Positions 10,931 through 47,947 of a stretch of DNA of 64,000 nt are shown piece after piece (position 1 is the first letter of the stretch; each line of letters begins with the position of its first letter). This stretch comes from Cenococcum geophilum 1.58 (taxonomy: Eukaryota; Ascomycota; Dothideomycetes; Gloniales; Gloniaceae). The notes under the pieces were generated by a model. The model was not told where the DNA came from. It ran no database searches and saw nothing but the letters and a program-made list of their open reading frames with translations. A program made the position numbers and the translations under genes. The stretch is from NCBI GenBank assembly GCA_001692895.1, contig KV748252.1:496001-560000 (forward strand), given 5' to 3'.

Positions 10931-11772
10931 CTTTAGCGAGCGATTATATTATATATTATCTCTACTTATATAGCAAAAAACGCGACTCTCTAAAACCTCT
11001 AAATTTAAAATTATATTAACAGCTATATAAACGACCGAGTCCTATTAAGTAAACATTATATAGGACTTACTAATCCCATTATAGCTATCTATAATAATAC
11101 AAACATTGCTATTTTAAAGGAACTGCTAAATTAAGGAATAAAGTTGGAAGTTAACCTAGTTGTTTTATTCTAACTAGTTAAAAATATAATTAAAATAAAC
11201 CGTTCAATGTCCGTTCTCTTATTAAAAGGGAGTCTATTATACTAAAAAGCTCTTATTGTAAGAGCCTGTCTATTATACGAAATTTAGGTATTAGGTATTA
11301 TATTAGAAATACTTATAGCTAAATACCTTGGTCCCTAGCCCGCCGCGTACTCTAAGCTATACCTAAATCCGGTCTCTATACCAAAAAAAAGTCACTAGCT
11401 AATTCTATAAGAATTATACTATTGTTTACATAAAAGGCCTAAAAATTTCTCTATAGTTCATCCTCTTTAGCTAAATAATAGTTTACTTTAGCCTTTTCTA
11501 TATCTAGCTACGCAACTTAGCGCGCAAGATCTTTAGTTACGCGCCTAAGACTCTTAAAAATCTTATAGCTTTTATAATTATATTTAAGATTTAAGATTTT
11601 CAACTACTATATAGATTTAGTTTTTGCTACTTTAGTAAAGATAGGGCTTGTTCTACTAATATAATTATCGTTTACCTAACCTAGGCTAATAAGAGTATTA
11701 TAATTATTATATATAGAAGCACTTAAAGTAGAGCCTAAAGAGGTAGAGGGTCCTTACTTAGGAAGCATATAA
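10931..11772. other. Unassigned AT-rich DNA
   Basis: No domain, inverted repeat or terminal motif was recognised. It is RIP-biased, with short frames full of TAA/TAG. It lies between LINE-1 and the decayed frame starting near 11773 and could belong to either. Confidence 0.4.
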
Positions 11773-26014: not shown

Positions 26015-29000
26015 TTATACACGCAGAGTATTTATGTTAACAAACGTCTCTAGTGCCTTATTTAGGTTCGCCTTTATTATCGCATCTACTAGGTTATTTT
26101 GGCCATTAATCCATTAAATCTTAAAGAGTTCTTAACGCTTATAGGATTGCTAAAGTGCCATAATATCGATTATGAGGCGCTTTTCCTTCGTGGTACCGAG
26201 CTTAACTAAATACTTATAGAGGGAAAATAAATCGGTGTACACAATTATAGGGATAACGGAAAGTTTAAGTCGATCTATAATCATCTTTAGGGTAGTTCCA
26301 ATTGCAATTGCCATATTAACTCCGCTAACTATTCTATATATCTCTAACGCCAAAACACTTCGGGTAACGCGCTTGCTCTTAGTTAAGCTCTAATAGATAA
26401 AATTGCCATAGATTGTGAAGTCATTCTCTCTAGTAAATTCGTTCGCGATAATAATCTTATATCCTAACTAGGAGCTAAAATCTTTATTATTTGCAAACGA
26501 TCCATCGATAAATATAAAGAGCTTAGCGGTAGGAAGATTAATAGGCACGTAGAGTAGTCCCTGATTAAGATAGTTCATTTACCAGAAAAGACGTTTATTT
26601 AGGGCAAGAACGTCGTCCTTAGTTGGTTTCTAGTGTTAGGCGGTAACAGAGAGATTAAATGAAGCCTTAGGTTAACAGATAGAAGCAATATAAGCTCCGC
26701 AAGCGCGTTACTCTACGTATCCTTGCTTCGGGGAATTAACGTTAATAACGTTGATCTTCTTACCTTAACCCTTCTGGCGTAAAGCAATAGAATCCTCGTT
26801 TAGGGAGAGGATACATTGCTATAAGATTTGCCTTTACTAGCTCATCCTCTTTAAGAGCTGAGAATTGGTCGTCTCCTAAGATAATTGTATTATTAGTTTA
26901 TATACTGACGATTCCGAATAGGGTTCCCGTGGTTGTGATAAGGAAGTAGGGATTAAATATAGAAGTAGTTATTAAAAGCTTCTCTTTATAGTGCTTGCTG
27001 TAGGTAGCCCACCAGTAAGTTCCTGCCTCTGCGATTCTATATAATGGCTTAAGTATAACTATGATCGTGTCTTTAGGATACTGGTGGCGAATTTACTCCG
27101 GAAGGTATGCCAATATTAAGCGCTGAAGGTGTATCTTTGATTAGGTGTAGGCTTAAGTAATATCTTATAAATAAACTGCTATTCTATTCTTTATTAAGGA
27201 GGGAGCTAATGTAATAATAACTCGCTAACTAGCTCGTTAAATTATAGGAGATTGTGTAAGAATTATCTCTTTACTATTATCGTTGTAACCTTGGATGATA
27301 AGCCTTAATTTCTCAAATGGGGCGTTAGTAGCTTTGCCCTTGATCTTATTAACCATTCTTAACTTAAAGATGCAAACTCCATCGAACTTAGTAGGGTTAT
27401 ATTCCTTAAATTTAAAGACTCCTCTTGCGATAAGACCGTCGATCTCCTGCTTATTAGATGCTTAGAAAGGAGCTCCTAGGGTTATAATACGATCTTCCTT
27501 TTAGAGCTATTTTGCGAGCTTAAAGTTAGCCTTCTCTTTAGCTGTTATAAAGGCCATTAATAACTTGACTTTATTCTTAATGGCGGCAATAAATTATTCT
27601 TTAAAATTAATAAGGTGTTGGCGATTTCGTAATCCCTTTGGGTAACCTCTACCGCGTTATAGTTGTGGCGCATCTACTACAATTGTATTGGGATTATAGT
27701 CGCCTTCTAGAGCATGTTGATTATAGTTCTCTTCTAGGGCATCTTCTAGGGCATTCTGTAAAGGCTTGGAATTATTATCTTTATAGTAAGGCTTAATAAC
27801 AGTTAAACGGAATTAGGTGGGTCCGTAAGGCATCTAAATAGTGCAAGTTTAACCATTAATTATAATGAGTTAATATAGGCCTAACCATCCTCCCCTTTTA
27901 CGCTATACGCGTACTTTAGACTAGAGTGGCAGATTAAGCGTAGTTAAGGNATTTAGGCCATTTCTTATTCCTAGTACATTATTAACCTAGCGTGTAGCAT
28001 AGAGGCGTTATACCTCCTTTATTGCCTTGCGAATTGCCTTAGCTTATTATATAATAAAGGGAGATAGTAGAGAATCGTTAGTTATTTATGGGTAGGCGCT
28101 AAAGACTAGTAATATAGGTACGAGTCCATCCGGGCTAGCGGAATCGTTAATAGCTTTAATAGCCATTTATAAGGTAAGTTCTTCGCTAGCGTCCTTTAGT
28201 TCTAAAGAGATAATTTTATATACGCGGCGTAATAGCGCGTAATATTGCTTTACTTTTCCGATACTATTATGTGCCTTAATAGGGACTTCCTTAACCTCAA
28301 TTGCTATTGCCTTTATTTGTTATCAGAACTCTATAGATAAGAAGTTCTTTCTTACGTTATGGACGATTTAATTAGGGGGTCCTAGGTAGATATTAATCTA
28401 GCATAATTAAAGGGTATCCTATGCGTTCCTAGCTAATATATCCTTTAAGAATTGTGCGGCTTAGAAGGAGGTTAAAAAGTTAACAACTTAGAGTACTGGC
28501 TTGCCGCTGAGGTATATAACGTCGACAATGATACAGAAGTTAAAGTCGTAGTTATCTTTAAGGGTAAACTTAAATCGGCTAGGGGACCTCTGGTTCATTT
28601 AGTAGTGGTAATAGTATTTTATAAAATGCTTAATTGCCTTAACCTTAACTTTATAGCCTACTTGCTAAAGAACCCTAAGCAATTAGTAAACTAATAGGTA
28701 ACCAAAACGACGGTATAGTTGGCGTAACTCTAACTTAGTTAAATAGCTCTAAGCAACACTCTTTTCTGGTTATTAAAGGAGCAGCTAAGGGTAACCCTAC
28801 TTACGTATAATAGGCACCTGATTATCTCCCTACACAAGCATATTCTTAAGGTTATTAAGCTTAACGCCTAGTTTATCTATATCCCTGATGCAAAATAGAA
28901 ACGGGGTGTTTATAGAAATAACATAAAAAGTGATATACCCTAAGGGGGTTTAAACCCTAATTATGCCGAGAGAGATTATAGTACCTTTACCAAAACGAAT

Positions 29001-31685: not shown

Positions 31686-32952
31686 CTAGCAGCTCTTCTT
31701 TTATAGTTGCTATCTATATATATATACCGCTCGACTAGCGTAATAAATATTAATCCTCCTTACTTACTATTGCTATTATAATATAAGTCTTACTATCCTA
31801 AATTTTGCCTTTTAGCACATGGCGCTTTCTTACTTAGGAGTTATAGACAGATATCTTATTTGGAGGGCCGCTAAGGCGCTAGTAGTAAGCGAGCTAATAG
31901 CGATTTTCTATCCCAGGGATGGAAAATCCTAATTAGCTAGGTTAAGTTAGGGTCTATAAAATATTATACCCCCCCCTTCTAAAAAGTCTTAGCAAGAGAA
32001 TCTAACTAATTAGATAACTTTAACCGCTGGTTAAAGTTCCTAGACATCTTAAGACCTCTTATAACTAAGAAATTTCTAGGGACTTCCTTTTAACCTAACC
32101 TTTAACTTATATACGTAGAGTATTTGTATTAATAAACGTCTCTAGTACCTTATTTGGGTTCGCCTTTATTATTACATTTACTGGGTTATCTTAGCTATTA
32201 ATCTATTAAATCTTAAAGAGTTTTTAACGCTTATAGGATTGCCGAAGTGCTATAATATCGATTATAAGGCGCTTCTCCTTTATAGTACCAAGCTTAACTA
32301 AATACTTATAGAGGGAATATAAGTTGGTGTATATAATTATAGGGATAATAGGAAGTTTGAGTCGATCGATAATTATCTTTAGGGTAGTTCCAATTGCAAT
32401 TACTATATTAACTCCACTAACTATTCCATATATCTTTAAGGCTAAAACACTTTAGGTAATGCGCTTGCTCTTAGTTAAGCTTTAATAGATAAGATTACTA
32501 TAGATTATAAAGTCATTCTCTCTAGTAAATTCGTTCGCGATAATAATCTTATATCCTAACTAGGAGCTAAAATCTTTGTTATTTGCGAATAATCTATTAA
32601 TAAATATAAAGAGCTTAGCGGTAGGAAGATTAATAGGCATATAGAGTAGTCCCTAATNNAGATAGTTTATTTACTAGNAAAGANGTTTATTTAGGGCAAN
32701 AANGTTNTCNTTAGTTGGTTCCTAGTATTAGGCGGTAACGGAGAGATTAAATAAAGCCTTAGGTTGATAGATAGAAGCAATATAAGCTTCGCAAGCGCGT
32801 TACTCTACATATCCTTACTTTAGGGAATTAACGTTAATAATATCAATCTTCTTACTTTAACCCTTCTGGCGTAAAGTAATAGAATTCTTATTTAGGGAGA
32901 GGATGTATCTATTAAAAAGTAATAGTGTTATTAAATTAAGCTTTTCCTTCGG

Positions 32953-33191
32953 CATTAGGAATTTTTTTTTTGGCCCCGTTGTTGCAAGCGAAAATCGGGG
33001 TCTGCAAAACCTGCGTAAGTCGCAATTTTGGCAATTTGCGGGCAATTTGCAGCAATTTGCTACAAACACATAGGCTACCTATGCACGCGCCTGCCCTATC
33101 TATGTGTTTATAGCAAATTGCCAAAATTGCGACTTACGCAGACCCCGATTTTCGCTTGCAACAACGTGCCCAAAAATTTTTTTCCTGATGG
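32953..33191. repeat. Complete foldback unit at the left end of the 3.74-kb element
   Basis: 239 bp with arms cattaggaattttt... and ...ttttttcctgatg, sharing gttgcaagcgaaaatcgggg and cgtaagtcgcaattttggca in inverted orientation. The inner arm repeats the outer end of the whole element, so this could be a small MITE from which, or into which, the larger unit grew. Confidence 0.85.
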
Positions 33192-33192
33192 C

Positions 33193-33855
33193 CAGAGGCT
33201 CTGCACGAGGCTCTACATAAAGCTCTGCACGAAGCTCTGCACGAAGCTCTGCACGAAGCTCTGCACGAAGCTCTGCACGAAGCTCTGCACGAAGCTCTGC
33301 ACGAAGCTCTGCACGAAGCTCTGCACGAAGCTCTGCACGAAGCTCTGCACGAAGCTCTGCACGAAGCTCTGCACGAAGCTCTGCACGAAGCTCTGCACGA
33401 AGCTCTGCACGAAGCTCTGCACGAAGCTCTGCACGAAGCTCTGCACGAAGCTCTGCACGAAGCTCTGCACGAAGCTCTGCACGAAGCTCTGCACGAGGCT
33501 CTACACGAGGCTCTACATAAAGCTCTGCATATAGAGGCTCTGCACGAGGCTCTGCACGAAGCTCTATACAAAGCTCTACACAAGGCTCTGCACGAAGCTC
33601 TACATGAAGCTTTACATGAGGCTCTACGGGCTCTACACAAAGCTCTACGTACTAAGGCTCTGCATGAGGCTCTACACGAAGCTCTGCACAAAGCTCTACA
33701 CGAAGCTCTGCACAAAGCTCTATATAAAGTTCTACACGAAGCTCTGCACAAAGCTCTACGAAGCTCTACACGAAGCTCTACATATAGAGGCTCTGCACGA
33801 GGCTCTGCGCGAAGCTCTGCGTACGGAGGCTCTACACGAAGCTCTACACAAAGCC
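33193..33855 (+). repeat. 12-bp minisatellite array 1 (gctctgcacgaa)
   Basis: About 22 consecutive identical 12-bp units from about 33231 to 33495, then degenerate units (gctctacacgaa, gctctacataaa) to 33855. As 12 is a multiple of three, all frames stay open and produce long repetitive spurious frames on both strands (TKLC, CRAS and VQSF repeats). Confidence 0.95.
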
Positions 33856-33877
33856 TTTGTGTGTGCGCGTGACACAC

Positions 33878-35741
33878 TACTATCGGGTCCCCGCTTATCT
33901 CAGGTGGCCTCAGCCGCTTCTCTGAGGAATTTGTGGCGTTGCATGGCCCCACTCCAAAGCCACAGCCCCACTCTGTAAACTCGTCGAACTCCTAAGCCAA
34001 TCAGCGGCTCACACTAACTCCTCCGAACTCCTGAGCCAATAGAACCTCGCGCTACCCCCTAGACCCCTACACCCCCCCAAATTCCTCTGCGAAGCGTCTG
34101 AGAGATTATGGGCGCGTGTTTGCTGTAAGCCAGGCCAGATTTCTAACGCTTGTTAACTTCAAGCAACTATAACAGGGTTAATCTAGCAGCTATGGCTACA
34201 GTTCGCGATGCAATTAAATTATGATCTCCTTTACTAGTATATTTTAATTAATATAGCTAGCTAACCACCGTATTAAGGGTCAAAGTATAGCCTTAAAGTT
34301 CAAAAACGTGCTTTTTGAAGCCAGGCCGACCCAACTAGCTTGTCGACACAGCGACCATACTCCACCACCACACCTCTATTCACCCTAAAACTTCCTAAGG
34401 TACCTCTTACAAACAGCTCACCTAATTATACTATACCTATACTAGTAGGTATGGATTTGCTTCGCAGTAGGGGGGAAGCTTTAGGTAGAGGCTCGTGCAG
34501 AGCTTTAGTAGAGCTTCGTGTAGAGTTTCGTGCAGAGCTTTGTGCAGAGCTTCGTGCAGAGCTTCGTGCAGAGCTTTGTGCAGAGCTTCGTGCAGAGCTT
34601 CGTGCAGAGCTTCGTGCAGAGCTTCGTGCAGAGCTTCGTGCAGAGCTTCGTGCAAAGCTTCGTGTAGAGCTTCGTACAGAGCTTCGTGCGGAGCCTTGTG
34701 CAGAGCCATGTGCAGGCGTGCAGACGTGTAGATTGCAGACGTGCAGACGTGCAGACATTCGTACGGGCGTTCGTGTGGGTGACTAATTAATTGATTAATT
34801 GTATGGACGTTTATAAAGCCGTTCGTACGGGCGTTTGGTTAGTTAATCGTACAGACGTTTATAGAGCCGTTCGTGTAGACGATTATAGAGACTTCCTAGT
34901 ATATCAGTGCTGCGTATTAGGAGAGTTTTGGAGCTCCGTATTAAGCTTCGAGTAGAGCTTCAAGCAGAGCCTCGCGTAGAGCTTTTAAGCAGAGCTTTTG
35001 AGCAGAGCTCCGTGCAGAGCCTTAAGTAGAGCTTCGAGCAGAGCGTCATGCAGAGCTTCGAGCAGAGCTTTGATAGAGCTTTAAGTGGAGCCTCGTGCAG
35101 AGCTTTGAGTAGGGCTTCAAGCAGAGCTTCGAGCGGAGTAGAGCTTTAAGTAGAAAGCTTCCCTATATAGACCTTTATTTAGGCTTGTTTTTAAAGGCCT
35201 TGTAAACGGCTCTGTACAGAGCTTTGAGCAGAGCTTTAATATAGGCGTTCGTGCAGGCGTTCGTGCAGGCGTTCGTGCAAGCGTTCGTGCAGGCGTTCGG
35301 TGCATGCGTTCGTGCAGGTTGTGGGACGTTTGTAGGGGTTATTAGGGGCACGGTCGGGCTCTATTGCGAATGCAATATATAGAGTAGGAGATGAGCTTTC
35401 AAATGGAGGTATTGGCGAGCTGAAGAGCTATATTAGGGTCGAAGTACGACGTCGAAGGCGATACAACTGTATCCACCAGTGAGGCTGTACAGCCCTTACA
35501 AAACGCGCCCATAATCTCTCAGACCCTCGAGAGGAATCCCCTCGGCGCTCTATAATTGGCTGCTAAAGCTAGCGCAAGCACTAACGCCTGCGGCGTACAT
35601 TAGCTGCGGCGCCCAGTCGCTAATTGGCTTAGGTGTGGCGGTGCCAGCCGCTAATTGGCTCAGAAGTTTGCAGGAGGTAAGGTGGATTTTCTCTCCGAGG
35701 GTCTGAGTCAACTGAGATAAGCCCCGCTATATTCCCGATAG
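33878..35741. repeat. Inner inverted arms inside the 3.74-kb element
   Basis: Two blocks are repeated in inverse order and orientation: ccgcttatctcag at 33891-33904 with its complement at 35712-35726, flanked by ctatcggg/cccgatag; and tctgagagattatgggcgcg at 34097-34116 with its complement at 35503-35522. Weaker matches (gagccaat, cagcggct) lie between. They bracket the second 12-bp array, suggesting a nested foldback of about 1.86 kb. Confidence 0.75.
34486..34710 (-). repeat. 12-bp minisatellite array 2, inverted relative to array 1
   Basis: About 17 units of gagcttcgtgca, the reverse complement of the array 1 unit. A looser version (cagagcttcgag) continues at 34930-35150, and a gcgttcgtgcag repeat follows at 35245-35320. 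Confidence 0.93.
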
Positions 35742-35854
35742 CCTCTACACGTGCCTCTGCCAAGTATACCCCTATATACACCTAGGTAGCCACCTCATTT
35801 TTACCCTTCCTACATCCTCCCTACCTAGGAAGACACCAGAACGACAGCCAAGCA

Positions 35855-36038
35855 GACGACCGTCGCCGGAGCCAGACGACCATCGCCGGAGCTAGACGAC
35901 CATCGCCGGAACTAGACGACCGTCGTCAGAGCTAGACGACCGTCGCCGGAGCCAGATGACCGTCAGAGCTAGACGACCGTCGCCGGAGCCAGATGACCGT
36001 CGTCATCGCCACACGACCGTCGCCAGAGCCACACGACA
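35855..36038 (+). repeat. 20-bp minisatellite (gacgaccgtcgccggagcca)
   Basis: Nine or so units of 17-20 bp with C/T and A/G variants, near the right side of the 3.74-kb element. It is followed by cgatcgatcgatcg at 36078-36091. Confidence 0.9.
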
Positions 36039-36099
36039 ACCGTTCAAACGACCAGCCAGCGAACACGATAAACGATTCGATCGATCGATCGAATCAAGG

Positions 36100-36257
36100 T
36101 GACATAGACAGNTAGGCACAGACAGGTAGGCACAGATAGGTAGGCATAGACGGGTAGGTATAGACGGACGGACAGACAGGTAGGTAGGCAAGCAGGCAGG
36201 TAGGCAGGCAGGTAGGCAGGTAGGCAGGTAGGCAGGCAGGCAGGTAGGCATGTAGGT

Positions 36258-36296
<39 letters not shown>

Positions 36297-36304
36297 TAGG
36301 TAGA
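36100..36304 (+). repeat. Tetranucleotide repeat (ggca/ggta)n
   Basis: Interspersed caggtagg and ggcaggca units. The open frames on the minus strand here (Leu-Pro-Ala-Cys repeats) are products of the repeat. A second simple run, tttgtacaattcgtacag, is at 36470-36550. Confidence 0.9.
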
Positions 36305-38330
36305 TGATTTAGAGTCTCTGCGAGAGGCTTCCCCCTTGACGCCCAAAGTAGATAGCTCTACATTTTATATAGTTATAATATAAATATATTTAAAAGTATA
36401 TTATAGAAATCTATGGGAATATGTAATAATTTGGTTATTATGTAATATAATTATAATTTATATAGTTACAATTTATATAGTTACAATTTGTACAGTTTTT
36501 ACAATTCGTACAGTTTGTACAATTCGTACAGTTTGTACAATTTATATAGTTTGCGCACTATTTATTTATAGGGTAGCGTTTTGCCGCAATTTGCTATCAG
36601 ATGCTGCAAACTTGTTGCAAAACGTGCGTTTTGCGCAAATTGCTATCGACCATATCCACCTGCCGCAACAACGACCCCAAAAAAAAATCCTGATGGGCTT
36701 TACTATGAGATTTGCCTTTACTAGCTCATCCTCTTTAAGAGCTAAGAATTAGTCATCTCCTAAGATAATTATATTATTAGTTTATATACTAATAATTCTA
36801 AATAGGGTTTCCGTGGTTATAATAAGGAAGTAAGAATTAAATATAAAAGTAGTTATTAAAAGCTTCTCTTTATAGTGCTTGCTGTAGGTAGCCCACTAAT
36901 AAGTTCCTACCTCTATAATTCTATATAATGGCTTAAGCACAACTATAATCGTATCTTTAGGATATTAGTGGCGAATTTACTCCGGAAGGTATGCTAATAT
37001 TAAGCGCTAAAGGTACGTCTCTGATTAGGTATAGGCTTAAGTAATATTTTACAAATAAACTGCCATTCTATTCTTTATTAAGGAGGAAGCTAATATAATA
37101 ATAACTCGCTAACTAGCTCGTTAAATTATAGAAGATTATATAAGAATTATCTCTTTACCATTATCGTTGTAACCTTAGATAATAAGCCTTAATTTCTTAA
37201 ATGGGGCGTTAGTAGCTTTACCCTTAATCTTATTAACCATCCTTAACTTAAAGATGCAAACTCTATTAAACTTAGTAGGGTTATACTTCTCGAATTTAAA
37301 GACTCCTCTTATAATAAGACCGTCGATCTCCTGCTTATTGGATACTTAGAAAAGAACTCCTAAGGTTATAATATAACCTTTCTTTTAGAGCTATTTTATA
37401 AGCTTAAAGTTAGCCTTCTCCTTAGCTGTTATAAAGGCCATTAATAACTTAACTCTATTCTTAATAGCGGCAATAAATTGTTCTTTAAAATTAATAAGAT
37501 ATTGGCGATTTCGTGATCCCTTCGGGCGACTTCTACCGCGTCGTGGTTATAGCGTATCTACTATAATTATATTGGGATTGTAGTCGCCTTCTAAAGCACG
37601 TTAATCGTAGTTCTCCTTTAGGGCATCTTTTAGGGCATCCTGTAAAGGCTTAGAATTATTATCTTTATAGTAAGGCTTAATAACAGTTAAACGGAATTAA
37701 GTGGGTCTGTAAGGCATCTAAATAGTATAAGTTTAACCATTAATTATAAGGAGTTAATATAGGCCTAACTATCCTCCCTTTTTACGCCATACGCGTACCT
37801 TAGATTGGAGTGGTAGATTAATTATAATTAAGGTATTTAGGCCATTTCTTATTCTTAGTGCATTATTAACCTAGCGTATAGCGTAGAGGCGTTATACTTC
37901 CTTTATTGCCTTACAAATCGCCTTAGCTTATTATATAACGGAGGGAAATAGTAGAGAATTGTTAGTTATTTATAGGTAGGCGCTAAAGACTAGCAATGTA
38001 GGTATAAGTCTATCCGGGCTAGCGGAATCGTTAATAGCTTTAACAGCTATTTATAAGGTAAGTTCTTTACTAGCGTCCTTTAGTTTCGAAGAGATAATCT
38101 TATATACGCGGCGTAATGGCGCGTAATATCGCTCTACTTTTTTAATACTATTATATGCCTTAACGGGGACTTCCTTAACCTTAATTGCTATTACCTTTAT
38201 CTATTATCGGAACTCTACCAATAAGAAGTTCTTTCCTATATTATAGACGATTTAATTAAGGGGTCCTAAATAGACATTAATTTAGTATAATTAAAGGGTA
38301 TCCTATGCGTTTCTAGCTAATATATCTTTT

Positions 38331-46000: not shown

Positions 46001-47947
46001 GTACGCGTATGGCGTAAAAGGGGAGAATAGTTAGGCCCACATTAACTCATTGCAATTAATAGTTAAACTTGCACTATTTAGATGCCTTATAAACCCACCT
46101 AATTCCGTTTAACTGTTATTAAGCTTTACTATAAAGATAACAATTCTGAGCCTTTACAGGATGCCCTAAAAAATACCCTAGAAGAGAACCATAATTAACA
46201 TACTCCAAAAGGCGACTACAATCCCAATACAATTGTAGTAGATGCGCCACAACTATAACGCGGTAGAGGTCGCCTGAAGGGATCACAAAATCGCTAATAC
46301 CTTGTTAATTTTGAAGAACAATTTGTTGCTGCCATTAAGAATAAAGTCGAGTTATTAATGGCCTTTATGACAGCTAAAGAGAAGGCTGACTTTAAGCTCG
46401 CAAAACAGCTCTAAAAGGAAGGTCGTATTATAACCCTAGGAGCTCCTTTCTAAGCATCCGACAAGCAAGAGATCGACGGTCTTATCGTAAGAGGAGTCTT
46501 TAAATTCAAGGAATATAACCCTACTAAGTTCGATGGAGTTCGCATCTTTAAGTCAAGAATGGTCAACGAAATTAAGGGCAAAGCTACTAACGCCCTATTT
46601 GAGAAATTAAGGCTTATTATCTAAGGTTACAACGATAATAGTAAAGAGATGATTTTTATATAATCTCCTACAATTCAACGAGCTAGTCAGCAAGTCATTG
46701 TTGCATTAGCTCCCTCCTTAATAAAGAATAGAATAGCAGTTTATTTGCGAGATATTACTTAAGCCTATACCTAATCAGAGACGCACCTTTAGCGCTTAAT
46801 ATTGGCATACCTTCCGGAGTAAATTCGCCACCAGTATCCTAAAGACACGATTATGGTTATGCTTAAGCCATTATATAAAATCGTAGAGGCAGGAACTTAC
46901 TAGTAGGCTACCTACAGCAAGCACTATAAAGAGAAGCTTTTAATAACTACTTCTATATTTAATCCCTACTTCCTTATTATAACCACGGGAACCCTATTCG
47001 GAATCGTCGGTATATAAACTAATAATACAATTATCTTGGGAGACGACCAATTCTTAGCTCTTAAAGAGGATGAGCTAGTAAAGGCAAATCTTATGGCAAA
47101 GCTAAAGGAAAAGCTTGACTTAACAACACCATTACTCTTTAATGGATGTATCCTCTCCCTAAACGAGGATTCCATTGCTTTACGCCAGAAGGGTTAAGGT
47201 AAGAAGATCGACGTTATTAACATTAATTCCCCGAAGTAAGGATACGTGGAGTAACGCGCTCGCGGAGCTTATATTGCTTCTATCTGTTAACCCAAGGCTT
47301 CATTTAATCTCTCCGTTGCCGCCTAACACTAGGAACCAATTAAGGACGACGTTCTTGCCCTAAATAAATATCTTTTCTAGTAAATAAACCATCTCGATTA
47401 GGGACTACTCTACGTGCCTATTAATCTTCCTACCGCTAAGCTCTTTATATTTGTTAATAGATTATTCATAAATAATAAAGATTTTAGCTCCTAGTTAGGA
47501 TATAAGATTATTATCGCAAACGAATTTACTAGAGAGAATAACTTTATAATCTATGGCAATCTTATCTATTAGAGCTCAACTAAGAGCAAGCACGTTACCT
47601 AAAGTGTTTTAGCATTAGAGATATATAGAATAGTTAGTAGAGTTAATATAGCAATTACAATTGGAACTACCCTAAAGATAATTACAGATTAACTTAAACT
47701 TCCTGTTATCCCTATAATCGTATATACCGATTTATTTTCCCTTTACAAGTGTTTAGTTAAGCTCGGTACTACGAAGGAGAAGCGCCTTATGATTAATATT
47801 ATAGCACTTCAGCAATCCTATGAGCGTTAAGAACTCTTTAAGATTTAATGGATTAATGGCCAAGATAACCCGGTAGATATAATAACGAAGGCGAACCCAA
47901 ACAAGGCACTAGAGACGTTTGTTAACACAAATACTTTATGTGTATGA
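43091..47947 (+). pseudogene. Copia-2 copy C gag-pol polyprotein: in frame, with point-mutation stops
   Basis: ATG 43091 (MATPNDWRDSLLLG) and TGA 47945-47947 are in the same frame, giving 1618 codons with no net indel; interruptions are TAG/TAA from Gln codons and one or two Trp codons. Domains: Gag (about 1-430) with a zinc knuckle KCYICKKPNC near residue 437; protease near residue 570, where LDTGAA reads LDTRAA, a catalytic-loop Gly-to-Arg change; integrase HHCC finger near 705-745 (HRRFSHP...CHYCQ) and core to about 900; reverse transcriptase about 1120-1330 (GLIVRGVFKF; GIQTNNTIILGDDQ, where the family has QTDDT, so both catalytic Asp codons look mutated); RNase H about 1500-1618 (VYTDLFSLYKCLVKLG, ending VDIITKANP). 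It would drive reverse transcription and integration if intact. Confidence 0.92.

Follow-up and report, generated by a model that had tools for sequence, protein, structure and literature searches.

Structure of the insert

Cenococcum geophilum 1.58 carries a 3.7-kb insert in a Copia copy on contig KV748252.1, analyzed here within a window of 64,000 nucleotides (contig positions 496,001 to 560,000, forward strand; all coordinates below are those of the window). The insert is, with near certainty, a nest of two unrelated DNA transposons without a recognisable gene, here called OUTER and INNER. Its matched ends were fixed to the base at 32953 and 36695, where the first-pass annotation had placed them, and are flanked by the two copies of the 2-bp target duplication of OUTER, GG (left, 32951..32952; right, 36696..36697; no strand). 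The flanks, joined across the insert, match Copia copies in the same window at 46705-47501 (89%) and 26461-27213 (84%) right across the junction, so the insertion is clean, as had been claimed. Both matches are further copies of the Copia sequence into which OUTER inserted.

The earlier picture of a GC-rich, array-filled interior with no gene was borne out. GC content is 0.50, against 0.34-0.35 in the 5-kb flanks, and Tandem Repeats Finder (TRF) returned 18 rows of tandem arrays between 32000 and 38000. Nine open reading frames (ORFs) of at least 80 amino acids (aa) overlap the insert, each mostly array translation (judged by eye, no Pfam scan), and an Rfam scan of 32500-37200 gave no match. 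The 12-bp arrays hold long frames open (272 aa at 33134-33952 on the − strand; hundreds of residues in other copies), and gene finders may call such frames proteins.

The longest of the nested inverted arms described in the first-pass annotation, 33297-33504 and 34508-34715 (93% identical), set the 12-bp array of OUTER facing an array of INNER and therefore come from nesting. That annotation had also taken the insert as young or protected from repeat-induced point mutation (RIP). The composite RIP index, which is unreliable within arrays because their units fix the dinucleotides, is +0.37 in the insert versus +1.17 and +1.27 in the flanks, and the copy is far less RIPped than its surroundings; the family is nonetheless not immune, since 40-51% of the transitions between family modules or copies lie at CpA/TpG sites, which indicates that the families have been hit by RIP.

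Two nested transposons

OUTER, a 1.9-kb non-coding transposon with terminal inverted repeats (TIRs), entered the Copia copy with a 2-bp duplication, and INNER, also non-coding and with TIRs but 1.8 kb long and of a different kind, entered the core of OUTER. Each is a member of a dispersed family in the genome. The insert had been proposed as one element of a new class; 33895-35720 is instead a second element, with its own TIR and the 8-bp duplications of its family. The outer and middle pieces of the insert match different sets of genomic places (genome search, best 40 candidates per piece). Copies found with the left 648 bp follow the insert from 32953 as far as about 33895 and resume directly at 35722. 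Copies of the middle part start at 33894/33895 and end at 35720 in most of 11 loci. The sequence unique to 33895-35720 is missing from all 19 of the other OUTER copies in the duplication table, which lie at 18 loci (table defined below), and from 10 further loci with OUTER sequence. Insertion is proved a second time by the short INNER-family copy L031, which lies within a parent copy, with an overlap of 8 bp.

The OUTER family

OUTER extends over 32953-33894 and 35721-36695, with all of its parts on the + strand. Its left terminal module (32953..33190) resembles a miniature inverted-repeat transposable element (MITE) in being a near-perfect hairpin that begins and ends in a TIR; the DNA fold of these 238 bp has an energy of −87 kcal/mol (z, −15.1), and none of 200 shuffles was as stable. 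It is followed by a 12-bp minisatellite of unit GCTCTGCACGAA (33198..33854, 54 units), which is the left edge of a core shared with other elements, and by the core left of the INNER insertion (33855..33894), including a probable 8-bp INNER target copy at 33887-33894. Beyond INNER lie U2, a unique 132-bp segment of the shared core whose first 7 bp are the other, imperfect INNER target copy (35721..35852), the 20-bp array of the core (35853..36037), the 14-bp and 4-bp (CAGG) arrays that form its right edge (36106..36300), and the right terminal module (36305..36695) with the TIR at its end (36663-36695). The left and right modules are up to 97% and 94% identical, respectively, to those of other copies.

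The OUTER TIR, CATCAGGA..TTTTTTTT..CGTTGTTGC (CATCAGGA, a T run, GG.., and CGTTGTTGC), is about 33 bp long. A search for further copies, as the first-pass annotation had proposed, gave 132 + 145 = 277 exact matches to the gapped TIR pattern in 177.2 Mb and 0 to the reversed-pattern control. The duplication table comprises the 20 copies in which a script found both TIRs; L015, L021, L024, L025, L026, L028, L046, L047, L050, and L053 were left out (end missing or unrecognised, or copy broken up). Matching 2-bp flanks were present in 17 of the 20, with about 1.25 expected (TA in nine, AT and GT in two each, and GG, CC, CA, and AG in one each). Apart from L049 (5,388 bp, with a nested hAT element), the 19 copies other than that of the window measure 1,480-3,121 bp. 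Arrays occupy fixed positions inside the TIR and target-duplication boundaries in all 20 table copies, and in OUTER and INNER copies alike the ends are fixed and the array lengths vary.

OUTER thus has the build of a MITE whose core is filled with arrays, and not that of Foldback, to which it had earlier been compared, because its arrays are internal, its TIR is only about 33 bp, and its target duplication is 2 bp. It has the matched TIRs and the constant target duplication at many loci that mark MITEs and other non-autonomous TIR elements, and, the ORFs of the insert being array derived on the inspection given above, no transposase of its own.

Three copies with coding sequence were examined as autonomous OUTER candidates and rejected. 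In L021, a foreign start at a TA within U2 precedes the DDE_1 gene, which points to a nested pogo-like insertion; this pogo/Fot1-like element sits in the OUTER core within about 8 bp of the INNER site of the window. L049 and L053 yielded only hAT, plus weak aspartyl protease matches in L053. The hAT element of L049 (242-2938; Dimer_Tnp_hAT, E value of 3.6e-12) is nested in the OUTER copy with an 8-bp duplication, CGTGGTCG; it was dismissed as the array carrier, since the array lies in the OUTER part, outside the nested hAT. A very uniform TIR variant, CATCAGGAAATTTTTTTTCGGGCTCGTTGTTGC, recurs among the OUTER-pattern matches listed, mostly without a facing partner there, and may represent another subfamily or the autonomous one.

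The INNER family and its parent

INNER (33895..35720, + strand) has the TIR TTATCTCAG, whose pattern gave 35 + 29 genome matches (at most one mismatch; control, 0). Its left end (33895..34441, +) and right end (35340..35720, +) are homologous to a 9.4-10.1-kb parent, at 77-89% and 79-81%, respectively, to three long copies. Between them lie a 12-bp array with the same unit as that of OUTER, reversed (34493..34706, −), a second, diverged 12-bp array (34944..35138, −), and a third (AGGCGTTCGTGC; 35243..35318, +). The 8-bp duplications of the family are exact in 9 of 15 copies and agree at 7 or more of the 8 bases in 13 of 15; that of the window copy is one base off, and the right end of L039 is not recognisable.

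Three long elements (9,518, 9,358, and 10,081 bp) have the same ends as INNER and are collinear. Aligned to the C3 long copy, all 11 short copies lose homology on the left at parent base 1954 or 1955, and on the right 10 of the 11 do so at 11063; they therefore go back to a single replacement of the parent middle by array DNA. The parental sequence retained at the two ends of INNER amounts to 557 and 416 bp, as counted in the C3 long copy, and no 12-bp array was detected in the long parent elements. INNER is derived from a RIP-eroded DUF6589 transposon of 9.4-10.1 kb whose middle was exchanged for arrays. The domain was identified by Pfam in the six frames of L042, which covers most of one parent (stops read as X; DUF6589 E value of 9.9e-29). 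Of the helicase and transposase that mark Academ/AcademH elements, the scan gave a weak Helicase_C match only, sub-threshold (E value of 0.0072) and on the strand opposite DUF6589; it gave no hAT transposase, which the 8-bp duplication of INNER might have suggested, in L042, which is less than the whole element and in which RIP erosion limits detection.

A core shared between unrelated ends

The core of OUTER, with arrays as its left and right bounds, is found again in at least two other elements whose TIR ends are quite different. Its order is 12-bp array, U2 (132 bp), 20-bp array, and 14/4-bp array. A 36-mer of three 12-bp units had 1,058 + 996 = 2,054 exact matches in the genome (reversed control, 7 + 35 = 42). 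Places were taken from the first 100 matches listed, among which about 21 clusters fall on contig C1; eight of 21 listed C1 clusters were sampled, in order with gaps and not at random. Within the letters read, none of the eight carried the left module of the OUTER (CATCAGG) family. U2 was present in L056, L060, and L061, and parts of the INNER middle were present in L057, L058, and L059.

Two of these clusters proved to lie in TIR elements. The L056 element (L056 plus L063) is 1,722 bp long, with the TIR GGAAAAAATTTACC (408 genome matches with at most one mismatch; control, 0), and the L060 element (L064 plus L060 plus L065) is 2,322 bp long, with the TIR CATCGGGAAAATAT (14 exact matches); both have TA on each side. 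The order of OUTER is kept in both: the 12-bp array is followed by U2, then by the 20-bp array, and last by an array of 14/4-bp or related type. Outside the arrays the two have next to nothing in common with 28 OUTER loci and the window copy: the comparison gave a single AT-rich match of 49 bases (E value of 3.7e-4), and when terminal modules were compared more permissively, AT-rich matches reached an E value of 3.6e-5 over 36 bases. INNER carries the 12-bp minisatellite of OUTER without the rest of the shared core.

U2 was compared in a tree of about 124 bp, with mostly low support and RIP noise, from which L061 was excluded (below the length or score cut). The U2 of L056 differs by 0.8% from those of L052 and L020 and by a mean of 4.4% from 29 CATCAGG sequences, which themselves differ by a mean of 6.9%. 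These results suggest that array-filled cores can be swapped between elements.

Proposed exchange of cores and alternative explanations

A nest combined with core exchange mediated by minisatellites is, in our judgment, probably the best explanation of the locus. From the sequences, we infer that core modules were exchanged at the minisatellites. Each element would move by cut and paste, using in trans the transposase of a relative whose TIR is the same, and the gap left after excision would be repaired by copying another element. Long GC-rich minisatellites would let the copying strand switch between elements otherwise without shared sequence; ends would stay matched to a transposase while array-bounded cores swap between families, the arrays serving as joints and as neither coding nor terminal parts. 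Cores might even hop in this way, by template switching in arrays, between families of different superfamilies, with the 12-bp minisatellite spreading as a transposon parasite, in much the way that domains are spread by exon shuffling; this proposal we make tentatively and with some doubt.

Several observations weigh against exchange. Its steps are reconstructed, none having been directly seen, and the argument rests on two elements and the one U2 tree, which is noisy from RIP and weakly supported. Beyond the array, L056 and L060 have about 55 bp in common that CATCAGG copies lack, so the array is an edge only against OUTER. The U2 of L060 is 10.8% from the nearest CATCAGG copy (mean, 14.2%), and a core so distant gives no sign of recent exchange there. 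INNER leaves its parent at 34441, about 50 bp before its array and not within it. Finally, no transposase was found for OUTER: 150 scored DDE_1 matches, compared by eye with the TIR places listed, gave L021 only.

An unlikely but still credible alternative is independent capture, in which pairs of MITEs of different families came to flank the same array-filled donor stretch and afterwards mobilised it as a composite. In its favor, OUTER still has on its left an entire MITE-like hairpin, which bears two TIRs, one at either end, and folds as a single structure; TIR pairs of the GGAAAAAATTTACC family occur 189 and 217 bp apart (C18 and C44; by position only), a spacing expected of solo MITEs; and L056 has a palindrome of comparable length as its left module. 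The U2 of L056, however, at 0.8% lies within CATCAGG variation; a single old capture in each family would not give this, except from a donor that had not changed since, and the joint in L056 truncates the hairpin exactly at the array. It is very improbable that the arrays are host minisatellites which many transposons entered and not cargo of the elements. The array is indeed very common, as the clusters listed on C1 attest, and two of the eight sampled clusters (L055 and L062) have arrays with no known element in the letters read; yet the arrays hold fixed positions within TIR and duplication bounds in 20 OUTER copies and two other TIR elements, and they keep their order relative to U2 and the 20-bp array. 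A single Foldback-like element, which the matched ends, arrays, and long inverted arms might suggest, is hardly tenable, given that the middle is missing from all 19 other table copies, that INNER has its own TIR and family, that the longest arms pair the arrays of two elements, and that the target duplication is 2 bp. An assembly chimera, at which the short N runs in the window near the insert might hint, is negligible as an explanation, both junction types recurring at many other loci with target duplications.

Non-autonomous elements are usually classed by their ends, with the interior taken as decay or frozen capture. Under core exchange, interior and ends would here have separate histories, with minisatellites as the joints. 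If this held genome-wide, a short tandem repeat would have a concrete means of spreading through a genome, by riding several transposases, and the hundreds of arrays would form a natural data set on which to test template switching in gap repair. Repeat annotation should take warning, since a nest with shared arrays mimics one giant palindromic element.

Relation to known systems

Foldback elements have long terminal inverted repeats made of tandem repeats and a 9-bp target duplication. OUTER has internal arrays with a TIR of about 33 bp, and its duplication is 2 bp in the 17 matched copies of 20; that of the INNER family is 8 bp. In Ac/Ds, P, and Mu, internally deleted non-autonomous derivatives arise by abortive gap repair. 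INNER resembles these in keeping parental ends around filler that replaces genes; it differs in that the filler is an array module whose 12-bp unit is also found in unrelated families. Fungal MITEs of the Tc1/mariner/pogo group have a short TIR and a 2-bp duplication, as does OUTER, and TA occurs in 9 of the 17 matched OUTER copies and at both other core-bearing elements. The remaining 8 of 17 OUTER duplications are not TA, unlike the strict TA target duplication of Tc1/mariner/pogo (TA duplication also in PMC10045372), and no DDE_1 gene was linked to the OUTER TIR in the by-eye comparison above (DDE_3 was not searched).

Minisatellites inside MITEs and Foldback elements are already known. Tetris of Drosophila (PMC4079207) is non-autonomous and modular, contains tandem repeats, has terminal parts in common with the MITE DAIBAM, and presumably moves by means of an outside transposase. 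OUTER resembles it in being non-autonomous and modular, with tandem repeats, MITE-type terminal parts, and presumably movement by an outside transposase. The repeats of Tetris, however, measure about 220 bp and lie within its TIRs; here the arrays, of 12, 20, 14, and 4 bp, belong to the core, which is found between unrelated TIRs, and the TIR is only about 33 bp long. Galileo (PMC4168063) likewise has conserved ends with variable adjoining parts, including internal tandem repeats; unlike OUTER, it belongs to the P superfamily, with 7- or 8-bp duplications and known coding relatives. A MITE of Porphyromonas gingivalis also contains a minisatellite (PMC4596501); that case is bacterial and of one family, with no shared core reported in the part available. 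Among open-access papers, we found no matching report of an array-bounded core between unrelated ends or of array-mediated module exchange, nor of a foldback element or MITE with minisatellites in fungi.

DUF6589 in the genome

The parent of INNER adds a long transposon family with a domain listed by Pfam as of unknown function. Members of this family (L040 plus L041, L042 plus L043, and L044 plus L045) combine the TIR TTATCTCAG, 8-bp duplications, DUF6589, and perhaps an opposite-strand helicase, and they possibly form an undescribed lineage. No literature on DUF6589 was found in open-access papers; the protein had no PDB match by sequence, and its predicted structure was unusable (mean predicted local distance difference test [pLDDT] score, 33.6). 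The genome has 102 scored DUF6589 places, eight of them stop-free. Stop-free frames with identical coordinates lie at the very starts of contigs C9, C42, C74, and C149 (16-1248), and another lies at the start of C43 (2937-4205), as expected for subtelomeric genes.

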